NCBI RefSeq assembly: GCF_000317285.1
Contig: NZ_AJLN01000060.1
Span: forward strand, 1-32,597
DNA from: Chlorogloeopsis fritschii PCC 6912
GTDB lineage: Bacteria > Cyanobacteriota > Cyanobacteriia > Cyanobacteriales > Nostocaceae
Direction of reading: 5' to 3'
Length of the DNA stretch: 32,597 nt
Shown: positions 2,395 through 29,193 of the stretch, piece by piece
How the letters are laid out: each line of letters opens with the position of its first letter
Numbering within the stretch: position 1 is the first letter of the stretch
Position numbers and translations under genes: made by a program
The notes under the pieces: model-generated
Database searches by the model: none
What the model saw: the letters and a program-made list of their open reading frames with translations, nothing else
Told to the model about the DNA's origin: nothing

Positions 2395-2410
2395 TTGTCA
2401 ATATTGACAA
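2395..2410. promoter_or_regulatory. Palindromic operator, TTGTCA-ATAT-TGACAA
   Basis: A perfect 16-base palindrome just after the stop of the 310-aa gene and 20 bases before the -35 box of the next promoter. It matches the repeated TTGTCA-N4-TGACAA site found elsewhere in this window, so it is read as a regulator binding site and not as chance. Confidence 0.7.
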
Positions 2411-2429
2411 ATATTTCTTACCTAGTCTC

Positions 2430-2459
2430 TTGACAATAATTTGAATGGGCACTTAAAAT
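2430..2459 (+). promoter_or_regulatory. Sigma-70-type promoter for the 2511 gene
   Basis: TTGACA at 2430-2435 and TAAAAT at 2454-2459 are separated by 18 bases, close to consensus. Expected transcription start is near 2466, giving a leader of about 45 bases. The operator at 2395-2410 lies just upstream. Confidence 0.6.
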
Positions 2460-2510
2460 AATGATATGAAAACAAACGGGTCGCCGCCGATACGGGTGTA
2501 AAAGGTCAAA

Positions 2511-2966
2511 ATGGGAATCAAAGAATTAATCGCTGCTCACCTCAATACTTCCGCTTCACAAATCACCAAAGTTACCGAGTTATATAAGGTTTGGTGTGTA
2601 GTAGTTGCAGGTCGTCGCTCAAGATTTGTTTCCAAACTACAAGTATTAGGAGAAGAAATTAAATCTCTTTCTCCTATAACATGGACGCTCACGGCTCAAA
2701 TGCGCCGCCAAGAGGGTAAAAAGTGGGTGGCAAGAATTGATGGATTGTGCAAAGAATACGGTTTCAAGCGTACTTTTCTCTCTGCTCAATTCATTGAGTG
2801 GGGTAAATACGGCATGAAAAAGGCAGTATTTGAAATCCAAGAGCCGGGCTACTATCAAGATTCGGATGGAGATTACTTCCGCGTGTTCGTGAGTGGTAAT
2901 TCTTTAGATGCTGAATGTTGCTCAAAGTTAGAAGTACAAGCTCGGTTTGGTGTAGTAAAAGTTTAA
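2511..2966 (+). CDS. Hypothetical protein, 151 aa
   Basis: Starts at ATG 2511 behind aaaaggtcaaa, a weak ribosome binding site. The N-terminus reads MGIKELIAAHLNTSASQI and the rest is mixed alpha/beta with no membrane segment. Two Cys close together (D-A-E-C-C-S, near 136-137) are notable. No family is recognised. It has its own strong promoter at 2430-2459 with an operator-like palindrome upstream, so it may begin a transcription unit with the acidic gene at 3033. Confidence 0.6.
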   Translation: MGIKELIAAHLNTSASQITKVTELYKVWCVVVAGRRSRFVSKLQVLGEEIKSLSPITWTLTAQMRRQEGKKWVARIDGLCKEYGFKRTFLSAQFIEWGKYGMKKAVFEIQEPGYYQDSDGDYFRVFVSGNSLDAECCSKLEVQARFGVVKV

Positions 2967-3032
2967 TTCTAGGGGCTGGGTGCGACGCCATAAATCCGCA
3001 CAAACGTGTCTTCTACGAAAAGGATGTCAAAA

Positions 3033-3614
3033 ATGGTTTCTCAGCAAGAATATGATGCTGTTCGTCGTAATTTAGATCGCACTCGCGCACTCAAAAATGA
3101 GTGTCAAAGAGAATTAGCAATTTGGAAGAGATTAGCAGTTTCTGGTATTTCAATTACCGAAGAATATGGCGATCGCCTCATCAAGAAAATCAATCAATAT
3201 GCAGGGTCTACAGATTTTGATGATTTATCCCTACCTGCACAGTTAATGTGCGCGATCGCTTGGAGTAATTACCCCTCAGACGCATTTACAGATTTGGTAG
3301 ATGAAATTGAGAAATTCAGTCCTGATTTAGCCAAAATTATCAGCGATTGCGGAGTTAATTTCCGTGTATTAGGTAAGGGTGATAAGTGTAAAGCTTCAGG
3401 GTGGGAAATTCCTCATGTTTTATACATAGATACAGAGGAATGGTATGAGGACATTCCCAAAAGCGATCGTCTTTGGGATGAAGATGATGACTTGCGTGAG
3501 CAAATCGATGATGCTATTAACCAATATGCCAATGATTTGGTTGATGAAATCAAAGATGCTTTGCAAGAGGATTTTGATTTGAGTTTGCAAGAGTTATATC
3601 AGTTACTCAGGTGA
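3033..3614 (+). CDS. Hypothetical acidic protein, about 193 aa
   Basis: ATG 3033 is preferred because AAAGGA lies about nine bases upstream; GTG 3006 and ATG 3024 are in-frame alternatives. The N-terminal third is basic and helical. The last 55 residues are strongly acidic (S-D-R-L-W-D-E-D-D-D, then many Asp and Glu) and predicted helical. Such tails occur in DNA-mimic and anti-restriction proteins, but also in many unrelated proteins, so no function is assigned. The stop codon lies inside the left arm of the palindrome at 3611-3655. Confidence 0.6.
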   Translation: MVSQQEYDAVRRNLDRTRALKNECQRELAIWKRLAVSGISITEEYGDRLIKKINQYAGSTDFDDLSLPAQLMCAIAWSNYPSDAFTDLVDEIEKFSPDLAKIISDCGVNFRVLGKGDKCKASGWEIPHVLYIDTEEWYEDIPKSDRLWDEDDDLREQIDDAINQYANDLVDEIKDALQEDFDLSLQELYQLLR

Positions 3615-3655
3615 ACTACCTACACTGACCTGACGGTACAGTGTAGGTAGTTCAC
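3611..3655. repeat. Long perfect palindrome with 17-bp arms
   Basis: GTGAACTACCTACACTG at 3611-3627 and its exact reverse complement at 3639-3655 flank an 11-base loop. The left arm includes the stop codon of the upstream gene. The right arm directly abuts a tnpB-element relic. It could act as a terminator, an IS end hairpin or a dispersed palindrome. No T-run follows, so a simple intrinsic terminator is less likely. Confidence 0.75.
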
Positions 3656-3883
3656 TCGCAGTGACATCTTGTATTTATTATCTATAAATGTATTTGCGGT
3701 GCTGAGTTATGTCGTGATGAGAATGCTGCACTGAACATTTTGGCTAAGTCATTAAGAACGGTGGGGCACACCGGGATCTACGCTTGGGGACAGAACGACC
3801 TCTGTTTAGACTTGGAGACAAGTGTAAATAAGTCGGCTGGTTGAACCAAGAATTCCCCGACTTCAAGTCGGGGAGTGTCAAAA
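3656..3883 (+). mobile_element. Internally deleted relic of the tnpB element at 26500-27829
   Basis: Positions 3656-3683 match 26540-26567 (left end), and from 3684 the sequence matches 27630 onward (3' end of tnpB plus right end), with point differences. The 1,062 bases between are missing. The remaining frame still encodes the tail of a TnpB (I-C-G-A-E-L-C-R-D-E-N-A-A). The right end keeps the CCCCGACTTCAAGTCGGGG hairpin. It has no transposase and could only move in trans. The junction shows no obvious microhomology. Confidence 0.8.
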
Positions 3884-3962
3884 AGAACCTCCGGGAGCTT
3901 GGAAACCGCGTCTCTTTAGAGCGGGGCGGAAAAGCGACAATGCGGCTAAAGCCGCCGTATCT

Positions 3963-4397
3963 CTAGTGTCGGGCATGGTGCGGATCATTGATGTACGCCA
4001 TTACATGAGATGTGCTGACTTTTCCCGAAGTGTCGTAGAAATAACTGCGCGTCCAGAGCGAGGGAAGTGTCTTAAGATGCGTAAACTCATCTCTTAACAA
4101 CTTAGAACTGCGCCCCTTGAACGCTCTAGCAACCTCACAGATAGCAGTCTGCTCATCGTACTCTACAAGCAAGTGAACGTGGTCTGGGGCGATTTCTTTA
4201 GCCTTGATAATCCATTCCCGGTCATGAGCAACAGAGTCGAGGATTTCAGACAAGCGAGTTTTCACGTCTCCTACTAAAACAGGTTTTCTACGTTTGGGAA
4301 TCCAGACTAGATGAACCGTTGCCAGTCCTACAGAGTGGTTATTGTGCCGATACCCGATAGAATCTTTTCTCATTTTGTTTGGTTGATGGCTTGACAT
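3963..4397 (-). CDS. tnpA: IS200-type transposase TnpA (Y1 HUH)
   Basis: 144 residues, normal size for the family. The HUH motif is seen in P-D-H-V-H-L-L-V (His-Val-His). The single catalytic Tyr should lie in the C-terminal helix region (T-R-S-Y-F-Y-D-T-S-G-K-V-S, followed by V-M-A-Y-I-N). TnpA of this family cuts and rejoins single-stranded DNA at hairpin-marked ends without target duplication. The ATG at 4397 lies in the loop of a 9-bp inverted repeat; Met9 (MRKDSIGYRHN) is an alternative start closer to family N-termini. No frameshift is visible, so it may be active and could mobilise the nearby tnpB elements. Confidence 0.85.
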   Translation of the reverse strand: MSSHQPNKMRKDSIGYRHNNHSVGLATVHLVWIPKRRKPVLVGDVKTRLSEILDSVAHDREWIIKAKEIAPDHVHLLVEYDEQTAICEVARAFKGRSSKLLRDEFTHLKTLPSLWTRSYFYDTSGKVSTSHVMAYINDPHHARH

Positions 4398-4408
4398 TTA
4401 TCAACCAA
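4379..4408. repeat. Inverted repeat TTGGTTGAT / ATCAACCAA
   Basis: Perfect 9-bp arms (4379-4387 and 4400-4408) around a 12-base loop that contains the tnpA start codon. Probably a subterminal hairpin of the IS or a control on tnpA translation. Confidence 0.6.
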
Positions 4409-4467
4409 TATCTTATCGTTAGAAATGTAGACACTCAATCACTTATCAACCAAAAGGAGATCATACA

Positions 4468-4650
4468 ATGCGTTATTTCATTTGGCAGGTTCCTGGTCAA
4501 CTCAAATCGGAATGTCTCGCGACTGATAAAAGTTTTGAAGAACTTCGTGACTCCTTTTTTCATGAGGAGTACGGCTTAAGAGAGGTCGATGAAAAAGAGT
4601 ATAGAGAAGAGGTCGATTACAACAGTTCTTCTAGAAATCCCTGGAATTAA
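4468..4650 (+). CDS. Small hypothetical protein between the two IS genes
   Basis: 60 residues, starting MRYFIWQVPGQLKSEC and acidic in its second half. A strong ribosome binding site (AAGGAG, 4455-4460) precedes the ATG by seven bases, which supports translation. It lies between the divergent tnpA and tnpB, so it is either a passenger of a composite IS or a remnant of the interrupted phage region. No family is recognised and no membrane segment is seen. Confidence 0.5.
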   Translation: MRYFIWQVPGQLKSECLATDKSFEELRDSFFHEEYGLREVDEKEYREEVDYNSSSRNPWN

Positions 4651-4689
4651 CAATGCAATACGGATGCCAACAAAATCTGTTGCATCAGA

Positions 4690-5985
4690 AACCTCCGGGA
4701 GTTTGGCGACCCCGCGACTTTAGTCCGGGGTGGAAAAACGACACGGGTACTTCAGTGCCCGTGCTATAATAACTATGGATGCAATTATTCAGTCCTAAAT
4801 GCAAACTATATCCGTAAAATGTAAGCTTCAAGTCCCTGTAGAGTTGCGGTATGAAATTGACCGTACTTTGCAGGGATTTGCCGATGCTTGCAATCAGATA
4901 TTGAATACTGCAAAGGAGCATAAACAGTGGAACACAACCAAGCTTCATCACCTGTCTTATAAAACAGTGAGAGAGGATACTGGGTTGAGTTCCAACCACA
5001 TTTGCATGGCTATCCGGCGCGTAGTCGGTAATGTCAAAGCTGTAAAACAGATTCATAAATTTAGACCAACCTCGATTAGCCTGAATCAAAGAACATTTAG
5101 ATACTGGGAGGAAAAGCAAGAAGTAGGCATTACCTTGTCGAAGCGTCACAACTTTAAGTTGTCTATTGGTAATTATCAATTGGCTTTGCTGAAAGGACAA
5201 AACCCCACTGCGGCGACGCTTTGTAAATCCAAGAAAGGTGACTACTACATCAATATCTGTGTTGATTTGCCCACCGACCCCATGGGTAAAACACCAAAAG
5301 TAATTGGGGTTGATTTGGGTAGACGCGATATTGCTACCACTTCTACGGGTCAATCCTGGAGTGGTAAGCAGATTCAATCGGTTCGTGACCACTACAGCAA
5401 GGTCAGGGCGAACGTTCAAAGCAAACGCACTAGGAACTCTAGAAGACTTCTTAGAAGGCTCTCCGGCAGAGAACGCCGCTTTCAGGAATGGTTGAATCAC
5501 AACATTTCTAAGCAACTTGTTCAAGATGCAAAGCGCAGTAATTCCACTTTGGCTTTTGAAGATTTGACTAATATCAGAGAATCTCTCAATCAAAAGCCCA
5601 GAAGTAAGACTGAACGCCGCAGAACTAATAATTGGGCGTTCTACCAACTGCGTTTGTTTGTTGGATACAAGGCGAATATCGCTGGTGTCCCCGTTGTTTT
5701 TGTACCACCCGCCTATACATCTCAAAGCTGTTCCCGATGCGGAGGTATTCACCCAATCAAGGGTAAATCCTATCGCAACGGTAAAGTTTTTAAGTGTGGT
5801 CGTTGTGGCTTTGAACATGATGCTGATATAAATGCGGCTCTTAATATTGCTGCTTTGGGGAAGTCTGTAAGCCTTCCTGAAAGTCCGGGGGTGAGTTGTC
5901 AATTGCAGGGGCAAATGCCTCTGTTTCCGATATCTCAAATCTGAGGCTAAAGCCCCGTCTCTTTAGAGCGGGTAAGCTTACATAC
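4690..5985 (+). mobile_element. IS605-type element with tnpB only
   Basis: The left end (about 4690-4765) holds the hairpin-forming string CACGGGTACT/AGTGCCCGTG (one G-T pair) and a TATAAT -10 box just before tnpB. The right end (about 5945-5985) has a CCCGTCTCTTTAGAGCGGG hairpin. No tnpA inside these limits, so movement would rely on a TnpA in trans, for example the adjacent one. It lies directly downstream of the packaging operon, at the point where a portal gene would be expected. Ends approximate. Confidence 0.6.
4799..5944 (+). CDS. tnpB: TnpB RNA-guided nuclease (IS605 family)
   Basis: 381 residues. The RuvC-like triad is intact: Asp in V-I-G-V-D-L-G-R-R-D, Glu in L-A-F-E-D-L-T-N, and Asp in F-E-H-D-A-D-I-N-A-A. 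The zinc ribbon has C-S-R-C-G and C-G-R-C-G. N-terminal residues 1-120 fit the usual helical/beta region. TnpB proteins cut DNA using an omegaRNA made from the element's right end, which here would run through about 5985 with the guide just beyond. A 417-codon antisense frame overlaps it completely but has no family features. The two TnpBs in the window are clearly different in sequence, so they represent separate IS groups. Confidence 0.88.
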   Translation: MQTISVKCKLQVPVELRYEIDRTLQGFADACNQILNTAKEHKQWNTTKLHHLSYKTVREDTGLSSNHICMAIRRVVGNVKAVKQIHKFRPTSISLNQRTFRYWEEKQEVGITLSKRHNFKLSIGNYQLALLKGQNPTAATLCKSKKGDYYINICVDLPTDPMGKTPKVIGVDLGRRDIATTSTGQSWSGKQIQSVRDHYSKVRANVQSKRTRNSRRLLRRLSGRERRFQEWLNHNISKQLVQDAKRSNSTLAFEDLTNIRESLNQKPRSKTERRRTNNWAFYQLRLFVGYKANIAGVPVVFVPPAYTSQSCSRCGGIHPIKGKSYRNGKVFKCGRCGFEHDADINAALNIAALGKSVSLPESPGVSCQLQGQMPLFPISQI

Positions 5986-6081
5986 TCCCTCCCAGCACCT
6001 AGTCGGGGGTTTGTTGCTTTTGCCCTCGGCAAAGTCCCTAGAAGGGGGAGGCGCTGCCCCCATTAATCTTTGGTAGTCCAT
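5947..6081 (-). pseudogene. Possible truncated start of the gene after terL
   Basis: The ATG at 6081-6079 overlaps the terL stop codon (TGATG), the usual sign of coupling, and begins MDYQRLMGAAPPPSRDF. The frame runs 44 codons and ends inside the right end of the tnpB element. The IS may therefore have cut off the next late gene, where a portal protein is commonly found. Against this, the DNA at 6040-6065 is a GC-rich hairpin (GGGGGCAGCGCCTCCCCC on the minus strand) that might simply be a terminator or dispersed repeat. Weak call. Confidence 0.3.
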
Positions 6082-9000
6082 CAATAGCTCCCTTTGGTCA
6101 TTGGTAAATTGCTTCTTAAGCCTGTCATACACAATTCAAAAGCGTCACAAAGATCATCATGACTGGTAGAACCAAACTCAGTAATTTGTTGTACCAATCT
6201 GCCCATAGGACGCCTGCTATCTTTCATTGTACGACCATACATATTGAACCAGACTAAACCATTGGTAAACAGTCCTGTGTGCTTCCTTAGTCTGTACAGC
6301 TTATCCCCCCGCCCTGACGCCGGAACTGGGTGAACACGCCAAGTCACTATTTTTTTCTGCCCAATAATGTAATCCTCATAATCACCTTGCAGAGATAGTC
6401 CATAAGCTGAAGAGTCAAAGAATAGATTTAATCCTGATTCCGGAACCTCTAGCCACTCACCTTTTTCTGGGTCAAACAGTTTAACAGTAGGCAGTAAGTG
6501 TTGCCACATATCCCAAATTTCAATCATGGCATCAAGCTTTTCGATATTGCCCATGATCCTGTCTTCCCAACTGTCAATTATCCAATACTGGTCGGGGTCA
6601 TTCTTGGCTCCTTTCACCAAGCCACCCAATACCATCGCCGTGTAGTCATTTGATTCCTTCTTGCCAGCTGACAAGTCGCAACCCAGCACAAGGGTGTCAA
6701 ACCTGGTCGGGATAATAGCGCGTTGAATTAACTCAGGATTAATCGACTGCTCTTTAACACGAACAACTTTGTTTTGGCGCTGAAATGCGAATTCAATCGG
6801 CATTTCTTCGCGCTCTTTTTGTAGTCTTACTAGAGGTGTACCGGGTGATTTGTCATCTTCAGGTTCCCAATAGCTGTACTCTGTGCCGTCTTCCCGCTCT
6901 AGTAATGCAGACTGCCTAATGACTCGCCAACGATTCTCCTCTGTAAACTCAGTACAGTAAATATCATTTGCAGCCATCTGCGTACCTAAGCACAAGGCCC
7001 GGCTTCCATCGTAGCGACAGAATTGAACCACAGAACGCCATGTGGAAACCATCGCGTCACGTATTGATTGCGCTCTGATTGCTTCTGGGGATTTAATTAG
7101 GTCGTCCAAAAATGCTAGGTGACAATTATGTGCAAGAATTTTATTAGCAAAGAAATTATGATTACCTTCTACCTCGATATCATATACTTCTTCTTGAGAT
7201 TCTATTTCACTAATATTAGTAATCACATCGACAGACCAATCACCGTCTTTATAGGTGACAAGCCAGTCTCCTACCTCCAGATTTTTAGCTTGCACGTAAC
7301 CATATGTGGCGACATACAAAGGGTGTTCTGGTGTTAATTTGACTTGTAATCCTTCATGTGTTGTTATTTCGATTATTTTGTGGGAGATGCGGGATGCGAT
7401 CGCATTAAGTTTCCCCCACTCCAAATCCTCTGTTGTCTCATTGAAAGTAATGATGTAAATACCAATATAATTTCCTAATTCTGCAATTGGTATTTCACCT
7501 TTCTCAGTCAGTACCCTGGTTTCACCAACAACACACCGGCGGGAGTTTAAACCACCATTTAAACCACCGCAAACATAGGTATACTGCTCCTCGGTAGATG
7601 GTAAGCCCGCCCAATCGAGATCAATCATCCATTCTTTTTCACCCCACTTTTGTTTAGAAGGACGTACCCAAGGGAATATCTCTTGGTATTTTGGTGATTG
7701 CAAGATGGCTTGGATTTGGCGAGAGCGAGGTAGTGCAGTCTCTATGTTGTAGCTGATGCCTAATACTTTAAAAGCTAATCTGATCCAAGGAGATGTATGA
7801 ATACCAATTTCATAAGAGATAAATTGGGCTAAAAACGTAGAATTATGGGTTACGACATAATCGCGAGTAATGTATCTTTGATTGGGATGTTCAACGGTAA
7901 TACATTGCATTTCTACATCCCCAATATATTCAATATTTACAATACCTCTAGTTGGTTTATATGTCGTACAAGGTGAATACAAACAAGACTTTCTTGGCAA
8001 CCTAAAAGGCTGTATATCCTCTGGTAACTTAATTTCCACGTTATAGCTAAGTTTGCCCTGCCGACGTTCTCCTTTATGCTTATACCAAGGTTTCTGCGGT
8101 TTTTGGTGTGTAGCAATTCCTCCAAGCGATCGCACCAAATCAATAACATCATCAGCTAGTTGCTTGGATGTTGTAGAGTAACTAAGCCCCCCTCCACCTT
8201 TATGCTTTTTGGATACAGTGCCGTCAGTATCCATTAACCCTTGTAGTAAGAAAATCCTATCTTCTACAGAGGAAAATAAATAACTTTTTGGTATGAACTT
8301 TTCAGAAGATCCATGCCCAGTTAATCCTAGCTTGCGGATCTCTTCTAAAAAAATGCTTTTGCTAGCTTTACCTTTTTTAATTGTTTTTGAAATTATAAAT
8401 TGATTTTCTCTTTTCCCTATTTGTTTGACTGAATACCCTTTAGGTAATGTTTTCCTTACGAATTCAACAACATCTAAATCACTCTTACTAAACCTAACTG
8501 AATCTGGGTAAAAAGTTCCATCACCAAGCAATACACCCATAGTGTAAGGATTTATCACCAAATTTAGCTTGGGAAACTCAATTGGTTTAGTAATAGGAAT
8601 GAAGAATTTAGGATAACCTCTATAGTCTAACCAAGGCTTCTCTTCTGGTAGAGCATCTCGGTAAATAGTCTCTTGCTCGATGCGGTCACCCCTTTTAACT
8701 CTACGACTTAATACAAACACCTTTGATCTAATTTGATTTAGTGGTAAAGTCTTAAATTCTTTTGGGTTGCTTCCATAAAGACTCCTTACCGTCCAAAGGT
8801 GGTCATCAGAACACTCTACGGTTGCCCCGTCAGTAAAAGTTATCTTGTAACAAGATTTTCTACCTTGAGGGTGGACGTGAGTGACTGTTGTTGGAGTACC
8901 ATCATCCGCTATAACTAAATCACCTTGTTTTATATCCCCCATACATTTCCATCCAGATGGGGTTAAAACAAACTCTGTTAAAGGTTGTGCTTTTGCACTT

Positions 9001-9305
9001 TCTCGCGGAGCCAAAACCAAAGTATCATTCCCCGCAATACCTTGTAAGTATCTCGAATCTTGCCCTGTAAATAGAGCTTCTAACCACACTTTCATATGAT
9101 CATAAGTTTTGTGATTGGCAATAGCCAGTCTAAAAAACTCAAACGACTGCCATGACTGCGCTTGCACTGGTGTGGCATTGGCTAGTGCCATCTCAAAAGT
9201 TATCCACTCCCGCCACTGTTGCTCTGCCGTAGCGCGATACTTTGCAGCGTTCTTTTTTGCTTTGGTTTTGAGGCGGGGGGATAACTGGGATGGAAGGACA
9301 AGCAT
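6081..9305 (-). CDS. terL: Terminase large subunit containing two inteins
   Basis: 1,074 codons; removing the two inteins (residues 106-488 and 591-727) leaves 554 residues, a normal TerL size. The joined N-terminal ATPase has a Walker A loop (A-P-R-E-S-A-K|S-T) split by intein 1. Its Walker B strand (C-H-L-A-F-L-D-D) begins right after intein 2. The C-terminal RNase H-like nuclease shows Asp in G-C-D-L-S-A-G, Asp in L-F-F-D-S-S-A and a late D-D-L-C-D. TerL powers DNA packaging and cuts the concatemer, so splicing must happen before either ATP-site half can work. The start ATG overlaps the upstream stop by one base. Confidence is high for terminase and for both inteins. Confidence 0.92.
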   Translation of the reverse strand: MLVLPSQLSPRLKTKAKKNAAKYRATAEQQWREWITFEMALANATPVQAQSWQSFEFFRLAIANHKTYDHMKVWLEALFTGQDSRYLQGIAGNDTLVLAPRESAKAQPLTEFVLTPSGWKCMGDIKQGDLVIADDGTPTTVTHVHPQGRKSCYKITFTDGATVECSDDHLWTVRSLYGSNPKEFKTLPLNQIRSKVFVLSRRVKRGDRIEQETIYRDALPEEKPWLDYRGYPKFFIPITKPIEFPKLNLVINPYTMGVLLGDGTFYPDSVRFSKSDLDVVEFVRKTLPKGYSVKQIGKRENQFIISKTIKKGKASKSIFLEEIRKLGLTGHGSSEKFIPKSYLFSSVEDRIFLLQGLMDTDGTVSKKHKGGGGLSYSTTSKQLADDVIDLVRSLGGIATHQKPQKPWYKHKGERRQGKLSYNVEIKLPEDIQPFRLPRKSCLYSPCTTYKPTRGIVNIEYIGDVEMQCITVEHPNQRYITRDYVVTHNSTFLAQFISYEIGIHTSPWIRLAFKVLGISYNIETALPRSRQIQAILQSPKYQEIFPWVRPSKQKWGEKEWMIDLDWAGLPSTEEQYTYVCGGLNGGLNSRRCVVGETRVLTEKGEIPIAELGNYIGIYIITFNETTEDLEWGKLNAIASRISHKIIEITTHEGLQVKLTPEHPLYVATYGYVQAKNLEVGDWLVTYKDGDWSVDVITNISEIESQEEVYDIEVEGNHNFFANKILAHNCHLAFLDDLIKSPEAIRAQSIRDAMVSTWRSVVQFCRYDGSRALCLGTQMAANDIYCTEFTEENRWRVIRQSALLEREDGTEYSYWEPEDDKSPGTPLVRLQKEREEMPIEFAFQRQNKVVRVKEQSINPELIQRAIIPTRFDTLVLGCDLSAGKKESNDYTAMVLGGLVKGAKNDPDQYWIIDSWEDRIMGNIEKLDAMIEIWDMWQHLLPTVKLFDPEKGEWLEVPESGLNLFFDSSAYGLSLQGDYEDYIIGQKKIVTWRVHPVPASGRGDKLYRLRKHTGLFTNGLVWFNMYGRTMKDSRRPMGRLVQQITEFGSTSHDDLCDAFELCMTGLRSNLPMTKGSY
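7125..7535 (-). other. Intein 2 at terL Walker B, mini-intein without endonuclease
   Basis: Residues C591-N727 (137 aa). Block A starts C-V-V-G-E-T-R-V-L, block B is L-T-P-E-H-P-L-Y, block F is V-Y-D-I-E-V-E-G-N-H-N-F-F-A, and block G ends L-A-H-N followed by Cys728. All standard class 1 splicing residues are present. The length leaves no room for a homing endonuclease, so it is a mini-intein fixed at this site. It interrupts the chain just before the Walker B strand. Confidence 0.88.
7842..8990 (-). other. Intein 1 in terL P-loop, class-3-type, with LAGLIDADG endonuclease
   Basis: Residues A106-N488 (383 aa) of the precursor, inserted between Lys105 and Ser489 of the P-loop. It starts A-Q-P-L, so it lacks a Cys/Ser at position 1. 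It has the Trp-Cys-Thr set of class 3 inteins: W171 in D-D-H-L-W-T-V, C468 in E-M-Q-C-I-T-V and T486 in V-V-T-H-N. The C-terminal splice junction is H-N|S. The homing endonuclease has two LAGLIDADG-type motifs, M-G-V-L-L-G-D-G-T (about 256-264) and L-Q-G-L-M-D-T-D-G (about 354-362), both with their acidic residue, so it may be active. Confidence 0.88.
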
Positions 9306-9793
9306 TACAGTTTAGATTTGATAGATGCGATCGCCTGCTTTATTGATTCGATATCAGATTTGTGCTTGGATGCGATCGCTTTCTCATCTACTTCCTCAAC
9401 ACGGGAAATTAGTATAGAGACTTCATCTAACCAATCACTTAAGCAATCTGAAATATCTTGTTTAGTGTATCTTCCATAATTAATAAAAAGCGGGTTTCTT
9501 AACCATCGATGTGGTTTTTCATGGATTGTGTCATGTTCTTCAATTAATTTTTTGATATTGGGTACTCTGTCTTTCACCCCCAAAGAGAAAGTAACAGGGT
9601 ATAACTTGCTATCTTCTTCTTGCTTTATAAAAAATTCTGGTAATTCGTTGTAAGTACTGGCTATTACTCCAGGAGAATAACAATTATTGTTAAGCTTTAG
9701 CACTATACCGTTGAGGTGTAACCAGTAGATCAACCGTGGATCTACGTGCTCAGGGTTCATGTCAAATGCGTACCAGGTTTCTGTTTTATTCAT
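9305..9793 (-). CDS. Hypothetical protein in packaging operon
   Basis: 162 residues starting MNKTETWYAFDMNPEHVDPR. Its stop overlaps the terL start by one base (TAATG), so the two are probably translationally coupled. The first half is mixed with several Tyr, Trp and Asn. The last 60 residues are predicted helical and charged, with coiled-coil character (E-E-V-D-E-K-A-I-A-S-K-H-K). No named domain. Its position between the ParB-like gene and terL suggests a late or packaging-related role; that is inference from context. Confidence 0.65.
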   Translation of the reverse strand: MNKTETWYAFDMNPEHVDPRLIYWLHLNGIVLKLNNNCYSPGVIASTYNELPEFFIKQEEDSKLYPVTFSLGVKDRVPNIKKLIEEHDTIHEKPHRWLRNPLFINYGRYTKQDISDCLSDWLDEVSILISRVEEVDEKAIASKHKSDIESIKQAIASIKSKL

Positions 9794-9841
9794 TTTTTTG
9801 AAGAATGTTTTCTTTGATATGTAATGCGATCGCTTGTTTTA

Positions 9842-10423
9842 TCAACGACTTCTAACTTTACACTTTAATCCTTGTGCAACAAGGTTATTAAATACTTCAC
9901 CTTGTTCAATTTCATCTGAACACTCGACTACTACTGTATATTTCTTTTCTTTTTCAGATTTATCTTTAACTTCATCTATAAGTTGATTGTCTTGATTATC
10001 TGCTATAAATTGAAGTTCACCATCAGAGAAAAATCCTGATAAATCAACTTCTTTCTCTAGTTCCAAGAGAACATCAATACTCCAGTTGAGGGAAACTTGA
10101 CTCGTGCGATTGTCCGCTATAGCTAATTTTTTCGCTTTCTCATCAGTATCTAAATTCAAGTCGGTGCGACGAACAACAACGATTTCAGAACCATCAGTCT
10201 CAATGACAATCGCATTTTCAAAACCACTTTCTACAGCTGTCTCAAGAGTTTTATTTCCTGCAATGGTAACGTTTCTAGAGTCAACCAAAATTGACCTGCC
10301 AGCACCTAACTCTTGTAATGACTTCTCCAACATATAACGCCCGCGCTCCGTACCTTTGTTGGCGTTATTTGGGTCTGGGATTAAATCAGATAGTTTTATT
10401 TTTTTGACTTTTGATTCCGACAT
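9842..10423 (-). CDS. ParB/Sulfiredoxin-like nuclease-domain phage protein
   Basis: 193 residues. Residues 8-110 match the ParB N-terminal domain pattern seen in phage packaging regions: K-L-S-D-L-I-P-D-P-N-N-A-N-K-G, then G-A-G-R-S-I-L-V-D-S, I-A-G-N-K-T, and L-A-I-A-D-N-R-T-S. The C-terminal 60 residues are acidic and lysine-rich and include K-K-Y-T-V-V-V-E-C-S. Related phage proteins are often encoded beside terminases and may act as nucleases or DNA-binding adapters; the activity here is unproven. It is 48 bases upstream of the next operon gene. Confidence 0.75.
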   Translation of the reverse strand: MSESKVKKIKLSDLIPDPNNANKGTERGRYMLEKSLQELGAGRSILVDSRNVTIAGNKTLETAVESGFENAIVIETDGSEIVVVRRTDLNLDTDEKAKKLAIADNRTSQVSLNWSIDVLLELEKEVDLSGFFSDGELQFIADNQDNQLIDEVKDKSEKEKKYTVVVECSDEIEQGEVFNNLVAQGLKCKVRSR

Positions 10424-10601
10424 AATAACTTTTAACTTTTGAGGGGTTCGGGGAGCTATAAGTCCCGCGCTGTATGCGAAGCATCAGCGTCGGGATACAT
10501 GGACTCCCGCGCTTGTCGATTCCCCTCGACGGGGATGAGACAAGCATTTACCAGTAGCTATAGCTTGTGGTAGTACCCGTAGGGTCAGCGTCGGGAGGAT
10601 G
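10424..10601 (-). repeat. Structured, GC-rich intergenic segment in the packaging operon
   Basis: 178 bases between TerS-like and ParB-like genes with no ORF. It contains a stem-loop at 10511-10545 (GCTTGTC/GACAAGC plus an inner CCCC/GGGG), a second small stem around GCATCAGC at 10470-10490, and a 12-base direct repeat TCAGCGTCGGGA at 10484-10495 and 10585-10596. It looks like a dispersed repeat inserted between late genes, or an RNA processing site. Its base composition differs clearly from the AT-rich genes around it. Confidence 0.5.
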
Positions 10602-11162
10602 TCACTCATCAATAACAACAGCACTAGTTTGAATAACGTTTTCATTTGGATCTACAACAATATAACCTTCTTTTTCTATCCTCCTCATAGATGTATTCAC
10701 GTTTATCCAATAATCAAGTCCTGTTGCTGCACTGATTTCTTGTGTGGAGCGTGTTAATACCTGACTCCAATAATTTATTTCGCTAGGGCTAAGTTTCTTG
10801 AGTTCTATTATTTGTTCTTCATGACTGAGAAATTGTATTCTCTTTAGATCCTTTGCTCTCATCTGAAAAATAGCGTGAACATAATCCCTCACTAGTCTAT
10901 GCGCTTTGTAATTAGCACTAGCAATTTCTGAGAGTTCCTCACTCAATTTTTCAGATGTTTTTTCTAAAGTCTTTTGCTGAACAATTTTGCGCATCTCTGC
11001 TTGGAATTGTTCGCGCTGCCCAACCCAATCCTCATCTGAGCACCACTTACCAAGCAAACCTAGCGATCGCTTCGACAATTTTGCTAATTCTCTTAAACCT
11101 ATTTGCTCCCCTTCAACATAGCGGTGTCTGCAAGCCTCTCTACTCCATTCGTGCTTAGGCAA
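10602..11162 (-). CDS. Terminase small subunit-like DNA-binding protein
   Basis: About 186 residues from a TTG at 11162 with GGAG upstream; a TTG at 11177 is an alternative. The N-terminal part (C-R-H-R-Y-V-E-G-E-Q-I-G-L-R-E-L-A) continues into S-K-R-S-L-G-L-L-G-K-W, an HTH of the type found in small terminase and phage packaging proteins, followed by W-V-G-Q-R-E-Q-F. The middle is a long charged helix. TerS recognises the phage DNA and loads TerL. The call rests on the HTH pattern, size and the operon with terL; sequence conservation of TerS is low, so another DNA-binding protein remains possible. Confidence 0.6.
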   Translation of the reverse strand: MPKHEWSREACRHRYVEGEQIGLRELAKLSKRSLGLLGKWCSDEDWVGQREQFQAEMRKIVQQKTLEKTSEKLSEELSEIASANYKAHRLVRDYVHAIFQMRAKDLKRIQFLSHEEQIIELKKLSPSEINYWSQVLTRSTQEISAATGLDYWINVNTSMRRIEKEGYIVVDPNENVIQTSAVVIDE

Positions 11163-11565
11163 CTTCTTCTCCTTCAATCAACTTCAAAACTTCCAATATT
11201 GAAAACACAGGGTATTCAGCAAGACCACTCGCAAAGTCACCATAGCGAGTAGAAACAGCAGTAGGTTTTCCAACCTTAAAAAGTCTGCAATCTTCTATTG
11301 TTGCAACTATCAAATCAGGAAAACTCTCAAGTGCTCTACATCTATCCTTAGGTTCAAGACTACAAAATAAATTTACTAATTCAGTTTTCCTATACTGCGC
11401 AGTGATTGTGCTGATGAAAGCTTTCAATCTTAGCAATTCGTTTACTCGCGATCGCTTGGCAATAAATCTCTTCACTGATTCAATATCACCACACTCATCT
11501 GTATTACCAGCAATGAAGTTGAAATATTCTAAAAGCCGCGATCGCTCCTGTTCTTGCTTACTCAA
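11155..11565 (-). CDS. Hypothetical protein upstream of TerS-like gene
   Basis: 136 residues, start TTG 11565 overlapping the stop of the exonuclease gene by four bases, and its own stop overlapping the TerS-like start by eight. Helical and charged, starting MSKQEQERSRLLEYFNF. No domain recognised. Tight overlaps on both sides make it a real operon member. Confidence 0.6.
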   Translation of the reverse strand: MSKQEQERSRLLEYFNFIAGNTDECGDIESVKRFIAKRSRVNELLRLKAFISTITAQYRKTELVNLFCSLEPKDRCRALESFPDLIVATIEDCRLFKVGKPTAVSTRYGDFASGLAEYPVFSILEVLKLIEGEEVA

Positions 11566-12128
11566 GGTGCTACTCCTGTTCCGAACAAACTAGGTTGATT
11601 TTTAGTAGACATCAGATATTGCCAAACCCGAAGGTTGTACCGAGCGTCATTTAGTGCGTCGTGTTTGGTGTCTTCTTGGTTTGGTATGGGGGGACGCCCT
11701 AACTCCTCTTTTAACTGTCGAATATCGTTGCAATGGTGAGGCATCCCTTCAGGCAGGGCAACCATCGGCCCGTACAATTGACACAAAGACACCCAATCAT
11801 ATGCAGAATTATTTGCCCATAATTCAGGAGCTATTCCTTGATTAACCCCAAAGAAATCTACTAACTCAGATGCGATCGCACTTCTTGGTTTCCACAATGG
11901 TGTAGTGTAAATCGCACCAGATGGGTTGTACCAGGTAAAGTTATAGTCAGTAGGTGGAAGCAGGGGCAATACGTTTTGTTGAACCCAAGGGTTGCAATTG
12001 TTGGGGTTAAAGTCTCGCGATACTGCGTAGTACTCGCGCCCGTCTTCGCAAACTGCACCAATGGAAATTAAATCAATTAAAGTTCCCGTATCATTAAATT
12101 CGGTATCGAAGAAATATCTTTTTAGCAC
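11562..12128 (-). CDS. DEDDh 3'-5' exonuclease (Rv2179c-like exoribonuclease type)
   Basis: 188 residues. The first acidic pair is in Y-F-F-D-T-E-F (Asp8, Glu10), followed by I-S-I-G-A-V-C-E-D-G-R-E-Y-Y-A-V-S, a hallmark of the Rv2179c-like group. The third Asp is in S-A-Y-D-W-V-S-L, and the DEDDh His/Asp pair is in K-H-D-A-L-N-D-A-R. These two-metal enzymes trim RNA or DNA from the 3' end. In phages they may recycle nucleotides or process ends. It is the first gene of the minus-strand packaging operon, and its promoter must lie in the 34-base gap to the divergent gene at 12163 or overlap that gene. Confidence 0.8.
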   Translation of the reverse strand: MLKRYFFDTEFNDTGTLIDLISIGAVCEDGREYYAVSRDFNPNNCNPWVQQNVLPLLPPTDYNFTWYNPSGAIYTTPLWKPRSAIASELVDFFGVNQGIAPELWANNSAYDWVSLCQLYGPMVALPEGMPHHCNDIRQLKEELGRPPIPNQEDTKHDALNDARYNLRVWQYLMSTKNQPSLFGTGVAP

Positions 12129-12162
12129 TTAAAATAGCAATAACAGACAAGTGTTCACTATT

Positions 12163-12495
12163 ATGATAGAACCAAATGAAAATTATTGGGATAACTACAA
12201 TCCAGATACCGATTTTCAATCCTTAACACCAGTAGACAGGCGTTCACAATCTGTTGTCGGAAGTGGCAACATCAAAGTTCAAAATGCTGGATATGACCCT
12301 ATGTGGGTGTTCACTGAATTTGGCGATCGCTTGCGACTGCTCCCTGCGGATTTGTACGACTCGGTTTTCGAGGCAATCAAAGGTGGAACGACAAACCCAA
12401 TGCTTGCGATGTACATCAATACCTACAGTGGTGGAGCCACTTTGAATAGTTTGTGGGAACAAGAAGCTAAACGTTACTTACCAGATTTAAAATAG
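12163..12495 (+). CDS. Hypothetical protein divergent from the packaging operon
   Basis: 110 residues from ATG 12163 (MIEPNENYWDNYNPD); a GTG at 12151 adds four residues. Central segment G-Y-D-P-M-W-V-F-T-E-F-G-D-R, with Gly- and Thr-rich loops later. No membrane segment or named motif. It stands alone on the plus strand, followed by a 270-base low-information stretch. Confidence 0.55.
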   Translation: MIEPNENYWDNYNPDTDFQSLTPVDRRSQSVVGSGNIKVQNAGYDPMWVFTEFGDRLRLLPADLYDSVFEAIKGGTTNPMLAMYINTYSGGATLNSLWEQEAKRYLPDLK

Positions 12496-12698
12496 TTGTA
12501 CCGATTTTCCTCTTCTTGCGATCGCACTTCACCAGGAGAACGCGATCGCTTCTTTTTTGGAAGTGGACTTTTTGAGATAAATTTTTCTACGCAATTAGGA
12601 GGGGCACATCTAGTGAACCTCACGACATCTGTCAAAAACAAAAAAAGGTTTTCCGGGAGGGTTGCGGTGGTATGCGATCGCACTCCTTAAATTATTAG
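12496..12698. other. Noncoding stretch with three HIP1 sites
   Basis: Between the 12163 gene and the operator at 12699. It holds three GCGATCGC octamers and a purine-rich run, and no convincing ORF. A GTG at about 12615 behind AGGAGG could start a 25-residue peptide, but its composition (HIP1-derived C-D-R-T-P end) argues against it. I see no clear terminator. Confidence 0.4.
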
Positions 12699-12736
12699 TT
12701 GTCATTATTGACAACTAAGTTATTAGGATCTATATT
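12699..12736 (+). promoter_or_regulatory. Operator-promoter for the 12765-14027 operon
   Basis: The palindrome TTGTCATTATTGACAA (12699-12714) supplies the -35 box TTGACA (12708-12713). TATATT at 12731-12736 follows after 17 bases, so operator and promoter overlap and a bound regulator would exclude RNA polymerase. This is the clearest case in the window of the repeated operator embedded in a promoter. Confidence 0.75.
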
Positions 12737-14027: not shown

Positions 14028-14045
14028 CTTCAATTGACAATATAA

Positions 14046-14061
14046 TTGGCAGAATTGACAA
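14046..14061. promoter_or_regulatory. Operator variant TTGGCA-GAAT-TGACAA upstream of dinD-like gene 1
   Basis: Differs from the TTGTCA-N4-TGACAA consensus at one position, and the same TTGGCA variant occurs before the second dinD-like gene at 28028. A TATAAT at 14041-14046 overlaps its first base, so binding would cover a promoter. Confidence 0.6.
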
Positions 14062-14105: not shown

Positions 14106-14123
14106 GTTTTGCGGAGAAAACTG

Positions 14124-16817: not shown

Positions 16818-16852
16818 ATTACCCCCACAGTAGAAACTACACCTCAACAATA

Positions 16853-19535: not shown

Positions 19536-19551
19536 ATGTCGTTATTGACAA
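19536..19551. promoter_or_regulatory. Operator variant ATGTCG-TTAT-TGACAA before nrdA
   Basis: Agrees with the repeated operator at 10 of its 12 arm positions and lies 18 bases upstream of the nrdA start. Its TTGACA (19545-19550) could also serve as a -35, though the -10 would then fall on the start codon. Confidence 0.5.
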
Positions 19552-19569
19552 AAGTTATGTCAGAAAATT

Positions 19570-25209: not shown

Positions 25210-25236
25210 TTGTCACTTTTGACATAAAATTTGTCA
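25210..25236. promoter_or_regulatory. Operator TTGTCA-CTTT-TGACAT with an extra half-site
   Basis: 25210-25225 matches the repeated operator. A further TTGTCA at 25231-25236 makes a second inverted pair (TTTTGACA / TGTCAAAA). TTGACA at 25219-25224 may be the -35 of the methyltransferase gene, with a weak CATATC at 25243. Confidence 0.65.
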
Positions 25237-26118: not shown

Positions 26119-26155
26119 TTGTCACTAGTGACAATTGATATGCTGTGATGATAAT
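26119..26155 (+). promoter_or_regulatory. Operator-promoter: TTGTCA-CTAG-TGACAA and GATAAT
   Basis: 26119-26134 is a perfect 16-base palindrome. Its right arm gives GTGACA (26128-26133) as -35, with GATAAT at 26150-26155 after 16 bases. It drives the small membrane protein at 26229. Confidence 0.7.
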
Positions 26156-26195: not shown

Positions 26196-26228
26196 TTCGT
26201 TAACCCCTAATTGTGGTCGGAGCCAACA

Positions 26229-26495: not shown

Positions 26496-26499
26496 ATGT

Positions 26500-27829
26500 C
26501 CTTCAGGGGTGGGATGAAAAACGACCCAAGCGACTTTAGTCGCAGTGACATCTTGTATTTATTATCTGTTTACGCTATAATTGCAGCGTAACTTAATAGT
26601 TGTCTATGTTAGTATACGAGTTCAAGTTGAAAGGCAAGCAGCAGCAGTTTAATCTGATTGATGAAGCAATCAGGACTGCTTTGTTTATCCGTAATTCTTG
26701 TGTCCGTTACTGGCTAGATAACAAACAAGTTGGTAAGTATGACTTAAGCTCCTACTGTAAAATTCTGGCTAAAAACTTTGAGTGGGCAAGTAAGCTCAAT
26801 TCAATGGCTAGACAGGCATCAGCAGACAGAGCTTGGTCGGCAATTTCTAGGTTCTACAGTAATTACAAGAAAAAAGTTCCAGGTAAGAAGGGTTTTCCAA
26901 AATTCAAAAAACGTGGACATTCTGTTGAGTACAAAACAACAGGATGGAAACTTTCTGAAGATAGAAAATATCTAACCCTGACTGATGATTTTGAAATAGG
27001 AAAACTTAAGCTAATTGGGACTTATGATCTGCATTTCTACCAAATTAAGGATATTAAACGTATTAGGCTGGTTAAGAGAGCAGACGGGTATTACGCTCAA
27101 TTCTGCATTGCTGTAGACCGAAAGATCAAAGAAAAGCCAACTAAAAAAGCCGTAGGATTAGATGTGGGGTTGACCCACTTCTACACTGACTCAGATGGAA
27201 ATAAAGTAGACAACCCTAAATTTTTGTGTAAGTCAGAGAAGTCACTCAAGAAACTGCAAAAACGGGTGTCTAAAAAATTCAAGAAAGGTCAACCGCAGTC
27301 TAATAACTACAAAAAAGCTAAGGATAAATTAGCTAGAAAACACTTGAAGGTCAGTAGGCAGCGTAAAGATTTTGCTGTGAAGTTGGCAAGATGCGTTATT
27401 CAGTCGGCAGACTTGATTGCTTATGAAGACTTGCAAGTGAGAAACATGGTTAGAAATCATAAATTAGCTAAAAGTATTAGTGATGCAGCGTGGTATCAGT
27501 TTCGATGTTGGCTTGAATATTTTGGAAATATCTACGGCAAGATAACTATTGCTGTAGCTCCTCAATATACAAGTATTCATTGCTCATCTTGTGGTAGACA
27601 AGTTAAGAAAAGCTTGTCAACTCGTACTCATAAATGTATTTGCGGTGCCCAGTTATGTCGTGATGAGAATGCTGCACTGAACATTTTGGCTAAAGGACTA
27701 AGTACGGTAGGTCATATCGGAACTAACGCTTGGGGACAGAACGACCTCTGTTTAGACTTGGAAACAAGTGTAAATAAGTCGGCTGGTTGAACCAAGAATC
27801 CCCCGACTTCAAGTCGGGGGAGTGTCAAA
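26500..27829 (+). mobile_element. IS605-type element with intact tnpB only
   Basis: The left end has the GCGACTTTAGTCGC hairpin (26530-26543) and the right end the CCCCCGACTTCAAGTCGGGGG hairpin (about 27800-27820), then TGTCAAA. Same IS type as the relic at 3656-3883. The exact left boundary is uncertain. No tnpA, so it needs TnpA in trans. It lies directly before a gene fragment. Confidence 0.75.
26606..27790 (+). CDS. tnpB: TnpB RNA-guided nuclease (IS605 family), second type
   Basis: 394 residues from ATG 26606. The RuvC triad is intact: Asp in G-L-D-V-G-L-T-H, Glu in I-A-Y-E-D-L-Q-V, and Asp in C-R-D-E-N-A-A-L-N. The zinc ribbon has C-S-S-C-G and C-I-C-G. Highly basic throughout. The omegaRNA should run from the tnpB end to about 27829, with the guide being the first bases after it. 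Its tail is nearly identical to the relic at 3684-3850. Sequence is clearly distinct from the TnpB at 4799. Confidence 0.9.
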   Translation: MLVYEFKLKGKQQQFNLIDEAIRTALFIRNSCVRYWLDNKQVGKYDLSSYCKILAKNFEWASKLNSMARQASADRAWSAISRFYSNYKKKVPGKKGFPKFKKRGHSVEYKTTGWKLSEDRKYLTLTDDFEIGKLKLIGTYDLHFYQIKDIKRIRLVKRADGYYAQFCIAVDRKIKEKPTKKAVGLDVGLTHFYTDSDGNKVDNPKFLCKSEKSLKKLQKRVSKKFKKGQPQSNNYKKAKDKLARKHLKVSRQRKDFAVKLARCVIQSADLIAYEDLQVRNMVRNHKLAKSISDAAWYQFRCWLEYFGNIYGKITIAVAPQYTSIHCSSCGRQVKKSLSTRTHKCICGAQLCRDENAALNILAKGLSTVGHIGTNAWGQNDLCLDLETSVNKSAG

Positions 27830-27834
27830 GAACA

Positions 27835-27993
27835 GGAGACTGGGAGGTTTCAAAAGTTGATGTGTATGAAACGAAAACAGAAGGTGCTGAGTTTGATGTT
27901 ATTGCTATTTGTTGGTGTAAATATTCACCAATCAATAGTCCCTTGAAGCAACTACCAGAAATTCAAATTCACCAAGATTTGCAAGAGGTTTAG
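27835..27993 (+). pseudogene. 5'-truncated gene fragment next to the IS right end
   Basis: An open frame of 52 codons reads G-D-W-E-V-S-K-V-D-V-Y-E-T-K-T-E and ends H-Q-D-L-Q-E-V. It looks like natural protein but has no good start: GTG 27862 is the only option and its ribosome binding site is poorly spaced. The IS probably removed the 5' part. An alternative ATG at 27860 in another frame gives a 28-residue hydrophobic peptide and is less convincing. Confidence 0.4.
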
Positions 27994-28027
27994 ATATTTG
28001 TCTCTACGTAGTTCATCGACAACCTGA

Positions 28028-28056
28028 TTGGCACAATTGACAACTAAATATAAAAT
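28028..28056 (+). promoter_or_regulatory. Operator-promoter for dinD-like gene 2
   Basis: TTGGCA-CAAT-TGACAA (28028-28043) is the same variant as at 14046. TTGGCA is also the -35, and TAAAAT at 28051-28056 follows with a 17-base spacer. Confidence 0.65.
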
Positions 28057-28085
28057 AAAAGAGCGGGTACCACTCGCTCTTTTAT
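28055..28085 (+). terminator. Leader hairpin before dinD-like gene 2
   Basis: ATAAAAGAGCG (28055-28065) and CGCTCTTTTAT (28075-28085) are perfect complements around a 9-base loop. Nearly the same stem as at 14074-14105. It ends 17 bases before the ATG. Confidence 0.65.
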
Positions 28086-28102
28086 CGTTTAGTAGGTAAA
28101 TC

Positions 28103-28765
28103 ATGCCTAACATTACTAATTCTAACCCATTTGATAGTATCCGTCACGTTGACGAAGAAGGCTTTGAATTTTGGTTAGCTCGCGAGTTAATGGTTGTCAT
28201 GGGGTATCCCAAATGGCAGCATTTTGAACAACCTATTAATCAAGCCATTGAGAACCTAGAACTTAATGGTGATAACATTTCAGATCATTTTTTACGGTCA
28301 AGCGTCAAAAAAGATGGCGAGACCAGGGGACGAGTTGGGAAAGATTATAAACTTTCTCGATACGCTTGCTATATGGTTGCTTTATGTTGTGATGGAAGAA
28401 AAACAGAAGTCGCTACAGCCAAAAAATACTTTGCCATCAAAACTCGCGAAGCTGAAGTTGCAATTCCTCAACTCAATGATCGCTTGCGGGAGCTAGAACT
28501 CCAATTAGAATTAGCCAAAACTCAAGAAAGGTTATCTATCAATCAGCACAAGCTATTAGCAACAGTTCATCTTTTAGAAACTATTTCCCCAGGACTAGCA
28601 CCACTAGCATTAGGTAATCCTTCTGCCGTCGTAGAGCGCACCGAATACATTGAGCGCGTAATCACACCTGATGGCGAGGCACATGAAGGTGTTGGCATAA
28701 CTCATATACAACGCAGACTTGGTTTCAAAACTACTAAGCAGGCCTGGGCATGGTTAGGAGAATAA
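28103..28765 (+). CDS. DinD-like protein, paralogue 2
   Basis: 220 residues. DinD pattern: F-D-S-I-R-H-V-D-E-E-G-F-E-F-W-L-A-R-E-L, then M-G-Y-P-K-W-Q-H-F, D-Y-K-L-S-R-Y-A-C-Y-M-V-A and Y-F-A-I-K-T-R-E-A-E-V. Shares the same N-terminal half and upstream operator-hairpin leader as the gene at 14124, but has a shorter and different C-terminal third (G-V-G-I-T-H-I-Q-R-R-L-G). The C-terminal part may give it a different partner or DNA target. Function inferred from DinD. Confidence 0.82.
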   Translation: MPNITNSNPFDSIRHVDEEGFEFWLARELMVVMGYPKWQHFEQPINQAIENLELNGDNISDHFLRSSVKKDGETRGRVGKDYKLSRYACYMVALCCDGRKTEVATAKKYFAIKTREAEVAIPQLNDRLRELELQLELAKTQERLSINQHKLLATVHLLETISPGLAPLALGNPSAVVERTEYIERVITPDGEAHEGVGITHIQRRLGFKTTKQAWAWLGE

Positions 28766-28767
28766 AT

Positions 28768-29193
28768 ATGGGTACAACATTGGATTATGTACTACAACTT
28801 AAAGAGGTTTACCAGAAAGTAGCTGATTTGGAAAAGTCATTACCTAATAACTTAGGCTATATACTAAATTCTGTCCTTGGAAGTTATGAGAACCTTTTTA
28901 ATAGGTTTTGTCCTTTTAAAGTAGGAGAGAGAGTTGTTCTTACAAAAACACCAGAGATAGACAAAGAATCTGGTTGGTATCGTGGCAAGCATTTTCTTGT
29001 AGAAGGGGCGATCGCTACCATCAAAAATAGGGATTATTACCAAAATAAATTTGTTTTTTACTTAGAATTTGAAAACGAGTCTTGGATTGATAGTAACGGT
29101 GAAATTCATTTATACGATCCAGAAAGACGTCACCACTTTGCCTTTAGCGAGGATTTTGTTGGTAATTGCTTAAATGTCAATAATGACATATGA
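28768..29193 (+). CDS. Hypothetical protein, 141 aa
   Basis: ATG 28768 with AGGAG upstream; starts MGTTLDYVLQLKEVYQK. The first 50 residues are helical. The rest is beta-rich with a G-E-R-V-V-L-T-K patch that resembles small SH3-like folds, but no family is recognised. Its 3' end carries an operator palindrome at 29174-29189. Confidence 0.55.
   Translation: MGTTLDYVLQLKEVYQKVADLEKSLPNNLGYILNSVLGSYENLFNRFCPFKVGERVVLTKTPEIDKESGWYRGKHFLVEGAIATIKNRDYYQNKFVFYLEFENESWIDSNGEIHLYDPERRHHFAFSEDFVGNCLNVNNDI
29174..29189. promoter_or_regulatory. Operator variant ATGTCA-ATAA-TGACAT
   Basis: A self-complementary-armed match to the repeated operator, inside the last codons of the 28768 gene and upstream of the small gene at 29221. 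A further TGTCA lies at 29197. Confidence 0.6.

Follow-up and report, generated by a model that had tools for sequence, protein, structure and literature searches.

Several temperate phages are described as controlling many transcription units through operators scattered over the prophage, and three of them are close cases. In phage P1, 22 asymmetric 17-bp C1 operators are dispersed over the plasmid-prophage, with antirepressors in the circuit (PMC8546580). In L5-type phages a single immunity repressor has more than 20 stoperators, located in promoters and in the short gaps between genes; each is a 13-base, asymmetric element that is oriented with transcription and bound by a two-domain monomer (PMC9283540). 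The SPbeta prophage has one 15-bp element (SPBRE), first found in silico, in about ten promoter regions, where it is bound by the master repressor MrpR (PMC10516654). Here we examine a dispersed palindrome, TTGTCA-N4-TGACAA, in the cyanobacterium Chlorogloeopsis fritschii PCC 6912. It recurs on the contig NZ_AJLN01000060.1, which we analyzed over its entire 32,597 bp (the window, or C59), and on a second contig, C57, of the same draft genome (7.75 Mb, 160 contigs). We propose, with a probability of about 0.72, that the sites are operators through which a master repressor, most likely the XRE-type helix-turn-helix (HTH) protein encoded at 16458-16850, controls a temperate phage-like element.

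Dispersed operators for one repressor are already known, and what appears to differ at this locus is their symmetric, phased and mostly three-armed form, together with a small XRE-like candidate binder. As in P1, many operators are dispersed over one prophage, with one repressor (here a candidate) and antirepressors (here family members); the P1 consensus is an asymmetric 17 bp, whereas the present sites have a palindromic core of other sequence and a phased third half-site. The element resembles the L5-type phages in having many motif copies in promoters and short spacers, but its arms are symmetric, its third arm stands on either side, and the asymmetry of the stoperator is absent. Like the SPbeta element, the motif was found in silico and is repeated at promoter regions of one prophage, although the motif is another one and MrpR has a tyrosine-recombinase fold, not that of an XRE protein. 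No cyanophage operator of such a type is named in the titles or abstract openings of the open-licence PMC papers listed, and among the matches listed for the two half-site words there is no cyanophage paper by title. Maintenance of lysogeny in cyanobacteria seems to be little described in the literature that we searched; cyanophage CL131 is reported to have antirepressor homologues but neither a repressor nor an integrase gene (PMC6293099). Here, reading the sequence alone yields a full, testable circuit, with a repressor candidate, an operator code, an autoregulatory array, antirepressor-family genes and targets, and a common operator offers a means of joining the scattered contigs of one prophage.

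All ten sites that the original prediction had placed in the window are present: four are exact (2395, 12699, 15167 and 26119), four have one mismatch (14046, 19211, 25210 and 28028) and two have two mismatches (19536 and 29174). The window holds six two-mismatch sites in total; 19536 and 29174 possess a third half-site, described below, within a 3-mismatch limit, while the remaining four, at 12254, 21303, 22483 and 29432, are without one and look like background. When up to three mismatches were allowed, we found 44 matches in the window compared with 22.2 (standard deviation, 4.6) in shuffled sequence, and none of 100 shuffles reached as high a count. At one mismatch or fewer, the whole genome has 70 sites, of which eight are in C59 and five in C57 (470, 4154, 9120, 9384 and 28596), two contigs that together make up 61 kb, or 0.8% of the genome. 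These 13 core sites compare with 0.45 expected from the other 57 genome sites (Poisson p 4e-15). All five genome copies of the exact palindrome fall in C57 or C59, as do 12 of the 29 exact copies of the core TGTCA-N4-TGACA. A genome scan with the motif had been suggested along with the original prediction, similar counts in shuffled or host DNA being what would speak against a regulon; the scan found the sites enriched in C57 and C59, with lower counts in shuffles and in host DNA. Read backwards as a control, the pattern has 29 copies in the genome. Even outside C57 and C59, the 57 copies of the loose two-armed palindrome are about double the 29 of this reversed control.

The spacing of the arms is also specific. 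At one mismatch or fewer, N4 gave eight sites in the window and five in C57, whereas each of ten other spacings between N0 and N10 gave 0 to 2 per contig. A word-free search for 5-base palindromes in the window ranked TGTCA-N4 (7) second only to the HIP1-type word TGCGA-N0 (9); in C57 it had five copies, fewer than HIP1 (15) and one A-run (6) and as many as a second A-run; if A/T runs are ignored, it again ranked next after the HIP1-type word. The flanks of the operator sites, TTTAG and CTAAA, are partly conserved. A chance palindrome or an effect of composition is ruled out by the shuffles, the host background and the spacing control. We also rejected an RNA hairpin or terminator: three of the 13 core 16-mers were folded and gave only -3.8 to -4.9 kcal/mol, more stable than most shuffles, as expected of any palindrome. 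Because neither G variant, at 14046 or at 28028, is compensated in the opposite arm, DNA sites are likelier than RNA structures. Exact 14-mer cores in two further contigs, C68 and C130, lie inside a gene read as pstB-like and were set aside as chance.

Beyond the palindrome, eight of the 13 core sites have an extra TTGTCA-like half-site exactly N5 past it, and this third arm is found on either side of the core. It occupies 8 of 26 site-sides, whereas 2000 shuffles of the flanks gave 0.14 on average and never more than 3. In an alignment of 16 sites, comprising the 13 with at most one mismatch and three chosen two-mismatch sites (W19536, W29174 and C57:1828), TTGTCA-like words at +21 or their mirror at -11 were found on 11 of 32 sides, with 0.24 expected. 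The 27-bp pattern TTGTCA-N4-TGACAA-N5-TTGTCA, at two mismatches or fewer, has ten copies in the genome, five each in C57 and C59 and none elsewhere, and its reversed control has one. The operator is mostly three-armed, a symmetric core plus a phased third half-site, which is an addition to the two-armed motif. Since the steps are 10 and 11 bp, the arms stand on one face of the helix. As in other dispersed-operator regulons, the motif is repeated in the prophage and rare in the host: C57 and C59 have 13 of the genome's 70 two-armed copies and all 10 of the three-armed ones.

We then compared the sites with a mechanical gene map, in which the non-coding share is 9.9% for C59 and 15.2% for C57. 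The centers of nine of the 13 core sites lie outside its open reading frames (ORFs). By our own reading, upstream TTG starts are the sole reason that 12699 and 15167 fall in coding sequence, and C57:9120 is inside a doubtful antisense ORF; the site at 19211-19226, with one mismatch, marks a true gene end, over the last codons of gene 18220-19248 (DNA methyltransferase-like by reading). The expectation that nearly all sites would be in spacers or at gene ends is thus borne out, with nine non-coding, three others artefacts by reading and one gene end. Many units carry a site, and the reach extends beyond the window into C57, although the term "phage-wide" proved too wide, as the packaging block at 2411-12698 (terminase and neighboring genes) has no site with one mismatch or fewer. 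The exact operator at 2395-2410 lies between genes 1448-2380 and 2511-2966, and a three-armed operator with one mismatch overall (25210-25236, plus strand) stands upstream of gene 25268. Two weak plus-strand operators, each with two mismatches and a third arm ATGTCA, are found at 19536-19562, immediately before gene 19570 (ribonucleotide-reductase-like by reading), and at 29174-29200.

Several arms coincide with promoters, which we defined as sigma-70-like pairs with at least 10 of 12 matches and a spacer of 16 to 18 bases in which the operator arm is the -35 box. Seven of the 13 sites have such a promoter, compared with 2.85 expected from shuffled flanks (p 0.012), and four of the seven are in the window, in agreement with the three to five anticipated. 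At 12699-12725 (plus strand; exact, with a weak third arm of two mismatches) the right arm is the -35 of TTGACA-17-TATATT, an 11/12 match; the three-armed operator at 15167-15193 (plus strand; core exact) carries ATGACA-18-TATTAT, and the exact operator at 26119-26134 carries GTGACA-16-GATAAT. All promoter-like pairs in 12.4-30.5 kb number 47 versus 40.5 (standard deviation, 7.1) by chance, hardly an excess, so that only the operator-linked pairs carry weight. The promoter and intergenic positions expected of a dispersed-operator regulon are therefore found, at 7 of 13 and 9 of 13 sites, and the overlap with -35 boxes, like the enrichment, spacing, phasing and position of the sites, is directly visible. 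Alternatively, the sites might serve a positive regulator of early or middle promoters. Six of the 13 sites have no arm-based promoter of at least 10/12, which weighs against repression and favors an activator, and LuxR-type proteins, one of which is encoded at 17834, are often activators. However, three sites (W12699, C57:470 and C57:28596) sit on promoters of 11 to 12 matches with a 17-base spacer (mean of 0.61 in shuffles, p 0.016); with an arm as the -35 box such promoters should need no activator, and a protein bound there would block polymerase. We regard an activator as very improbable.

Which protein would bind these sites? The 100 bases richest in TGTCA/TGACA in both contigs are the divergent spacer between the XRE gene (16458-16850, minus strand; likely ATG start at about 16817 by our own reading) and gene 16968-17426 (plus strand), with six half-sites compared with four in the best stretch of C57. 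Since the densest half-site cluster borders its gene, the XRE protein stays the best candidate, as had been proposed for this HTH protein in the original prediction. The array spans 16862-16930, with arms of one mismatch or fewer at 16862, 16875, 16884, 16894, 16905, 16916 and 16925 once overlapping readings are dropped; six arms, chosen by hand among 14 partly overlapping words, follow one another at steps of 9, 10, 11, 11 and 9. It contains two N3 palindromes, TTGTCA-N3-TGACAA (exact) and ATGTCA-N3-TGACAA, a spacing with two exact copies in the genome and 42 at one mismatch or fewer, versus 29 for the reversed control. At 16881-16852 lies a promoter-like pair for the XRE gene that overlaps one arm of the array. 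This layout looks like that of an autoregulated repressor gene, although the product of the divergent gene could also be the binder. The arrangement recalls the lambda-type divergent repressor/Cro region, in that the XRE gene and its divergent neighbor share an operator array, but here operators are also dispersed over the element and the palindromes of the array are N3.

The same operators and the same repressor logic could be read by another protein, which we consider unlikely. The gene at 16968 borders the same array as the XRE gene, yet its small product has no Pfam match and shows two ribbon-helix-helix-like repeats by eye only. The LuxR-type product of 17834 has a clear HTH match (E 1e-14), but the top-ranked half-site windows are not at its gene. 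An XRE protein of C57 has a stronger family match (HTH_3, E 1e-10) than 16458, whose Pfam HTH matches are weak and below curated cut-offs and whose PHROG matches are to transcriptional regulator/repressor families (E 2e-6 and 1e-5); the surroundings of the C57 gene (16671-16731), however, hold 3 half-sites per 100 bases versus 6 at the array. For the 16458 protein, the closest PDB entries by sequence are only Aca2 repressors at E 0.7, which is not meaningful, and in the phage collection tblastn at E 0.01 gave no match. Single-sequence structure models of the 16968 and XRE proteins had a mean predicted local distance difference test score (pLDDT) of 34 and 46, too low for use.

Relatives of the XRE protein (E <= 0.001) were found in 129 of the host family's 217 genomes, the host's own included, mostly at about 30% identity. 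Upstream of 40 of their genes (29 loci), TGTCA/TGACA is enriched 2.6-fold and TGACAA 4.7-fold relative to these loci as a whole, an enrichment that is suggestive only, because these upstream regions are related sequences. In 18 further upstreams, three of which belong to genes of the first set of 40, TAGTCA-N4-TGACTG occurs twice and a one-change form in a third, all three from one genus. Several of the relatives (L063-L091) stand in tandem, with TTGTCA/TTGTAA-like words upstream.

The element also encodes two proteins of the Bro-N family. The product of 14109-14972 (plus strand; likely ATG start at about 14124 by our own reading) matches Pfam PF02498 above the cut-off (E 1e-8) and the PHROG annotation "anti-repressor Ant" (E 6e-6; PHROG 8036), while that of 28103-28765 (plus strand) matches PF02498 just under the cut-off (E 5e-5) and PHROG 8036 at E 8e-30. 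The Bro-N domain expected of a Bro-N/Ant protein is thus present in both, and their putative antirepressor role is taken from the family name only. Upstream of each paralogue is an operator of the form TTGGCAnAATTGACAA followed by a strong hairpin. The first three-armed operator, on the minus strand at 14035-14061 (core 14046-14061, one mismatch), precedes a hairpin at 14074-14105; the second, also on the minus strand at 28017-28043 (core 28028-28043), has a TTGGCA-17-TAAAAT promoter on the plus strand and precedes a hairpin at 28055-28085. Folding energies are -16.5 and -17.6 kcal/mol, and the hairpins may shield each gene from upstream transcription. They are nearly identical, with A-rich and T-rich feet, and that at 28075 resembles a minus-strand terminator.

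Taken together, the enrichment within the element, the ties to gene starts and the common architecture uphold the original claim of one regulator acting on many units. We infer its repressor nature, the XRE protein as binder and the antirepressor switch. The XRE repressor would bind TTGTCA half-sites one helical turn apart on a single DNA face, and where an arm is the -35 box it would exclude RNA polymerase, at several units. It would thereby shut early promoters across the element and hold excision in check, the promoters concerned including those of the RDF-like gene described below, the ribonucleotide-reductase-like gene, the C57 replication genes and both Bro-N genes, and it would control its own synthesis via the array at 16862-16930. 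Because the XRE protein is too short for a protease domain, induction might instead come from a Bro-N candidate antirepressor that removes the repressor, and since the Bro-N genes carry operators themselves, loss of repression would feed on itself. A more speculative extension, to which we give little credence, is that the repressor reads single half-sites chained on one helix face in 9- to 11-bp steps, in either orientation and at N3, N4 or N5. This would amount to a graded, length-coded operator system, with three-arm filaments at targets and a six-arm filament at the repressor's own gene.

That C57 and C59 are parts of one temperate phage-like element is suggested mainly by the shared operator. 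IMG/VR lists C59 as a viral contig (IMGVR_UViG_2509601037_000001), and Pfam and PHROG searches show that it codes for terminase-like, RDF-like, XRE-like and two Bro-N proteins; ribonucleotide reductase, ThyX, dUTPase and a large serine recombinase were recognized by reading of ORFs only, and cyanophages are among the nearest phage matches. C57 carries replication genes along with the same operator sites. Its polymerase has no relative in IMG/VR, and the polymerases of Nodularia phages, at 26% identity, are its best phage relatives among the matches listed. A contig of another genome (G327) has three replication-region proteins in common with C57 and a 38-residue match to the ORF at 12699 of C59, a weak link that may join the two; this contig, when scanned, was without an operator. 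As ParB-type genes are found on both C57 and C59 and the 16-bp palindromes are dispersed over the element, we also weighed partition or centromere-like (parS-type) sites and other signals by which a plasmid-like prophage might maintain its DNA. The many sites at gene starts and -35 boxes, the third arm and the array at a regulator gene speak against such signals, as do a sequence and layout unlike those described for parS, and we judge this explanation extremely improbable.

Several further results weigh against a master repressor with XRE 16458 as its binder, or against a single element. Palindromes at the XRE gene are spaced N3 and elsewhere N4; the upstream enrichment among XRE relatives rests on kin sequences, with TTGTCA itself in 2 of the 18 further upstreams; and the ends of C57 and C59 have no common 18-mer in the last 150 bases compared. 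Of 388 genomes in the order, 39 encode Bro-N relatives (the host's own among them), and 16 stretches around these relatives (259 kb) hold three two-armed sites at one mismatch or fewer, with 1.9 expected at the own-host rate; no three-armed site is found there at two mismatches or fewer, and one at three. Among isolated phages, PaV-LD has 1 two-armed site (one mismatch or fewer) in 95 kb, CL131 has 0 in 113 kb and Nostoc A1 has 3 in 68 kb, and three related elements hold 0, 1 and 0. In 16 other genomes the exact palindrome occurs 16 times versus 17 for its reversed control. No sister phage with the same operator was found, and so there is no phylogenetic footprint; searches of IMG/VR for loci related by the RDF-like and XRE proteins returned only the same contig, and a search of genome contigs with the RDF-like protein gave none.

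The IMG/VR collection contains the exact three-armed pattern in 11 stretches and the flanked core in at least 120. Among the loci from both scans, L127 and L125 ranked best by number of sites. L127, with seven sites in 5 kb, was rejected, as most of these fall within an ORF made up of repeated codons. L125, a viral contig, has three sites, including, at 12122-12158, two exact copies of TTGTCA-N4-TGACAA that lie 21 bp apart where a minus-strand ORF begins, which gives four arms in the same register.

The three-armed operator at 15167 stands upstream of a gene at 15369-16457 (plus strand) for a Gp3-like, recombination directionality factor-like (RDF-like) protein (Pfam PF18897, E 8e-7) and also where a small minus-strand gene begins, by our own reading of its start codon. 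Among 387 other genomes, 2 encode relatives of the RDF-like protein; the contigs concerned carry 0 and 1 two-armed sites and lack the three-armed form. An element in another genome (G348:C174; L122/L123) has RDF, methyltransferase and recombinase relatives and a dispersed palindrome of its own, TGATA-N8-TATCA, at 4449, 10877, 15737, 18110, 28079, 28232 and 28467, three of these within about 400 bp. These are 7 of the 19 copies in its genome, where the reversed control has nine, and they are perhaps a second, differently coded operator set.

Among other features, C57 24241-27528 (L006 9241-12528) carries genes read as QueE, QueD, FolE, QueC and Tgt/DpdA-like, a run that hints at 7-deazaguanine DNA modification; the protein at L006 11452-12528, the sole one of the run searched, had no Pfam match. 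The terminase large subunit (6081-9305) matches LAGLIDADG/homing endonucleases and contains two intein-splicing stretches. Several genes read as TnpA/TnpB-like, of the IS200/IS605 type, lie at 3963-5944 and 26600-27790 and at L005 5120-6292 and L006 1-1194, and the gene at 26600 has 34-40% identity to two C57 ORFs.

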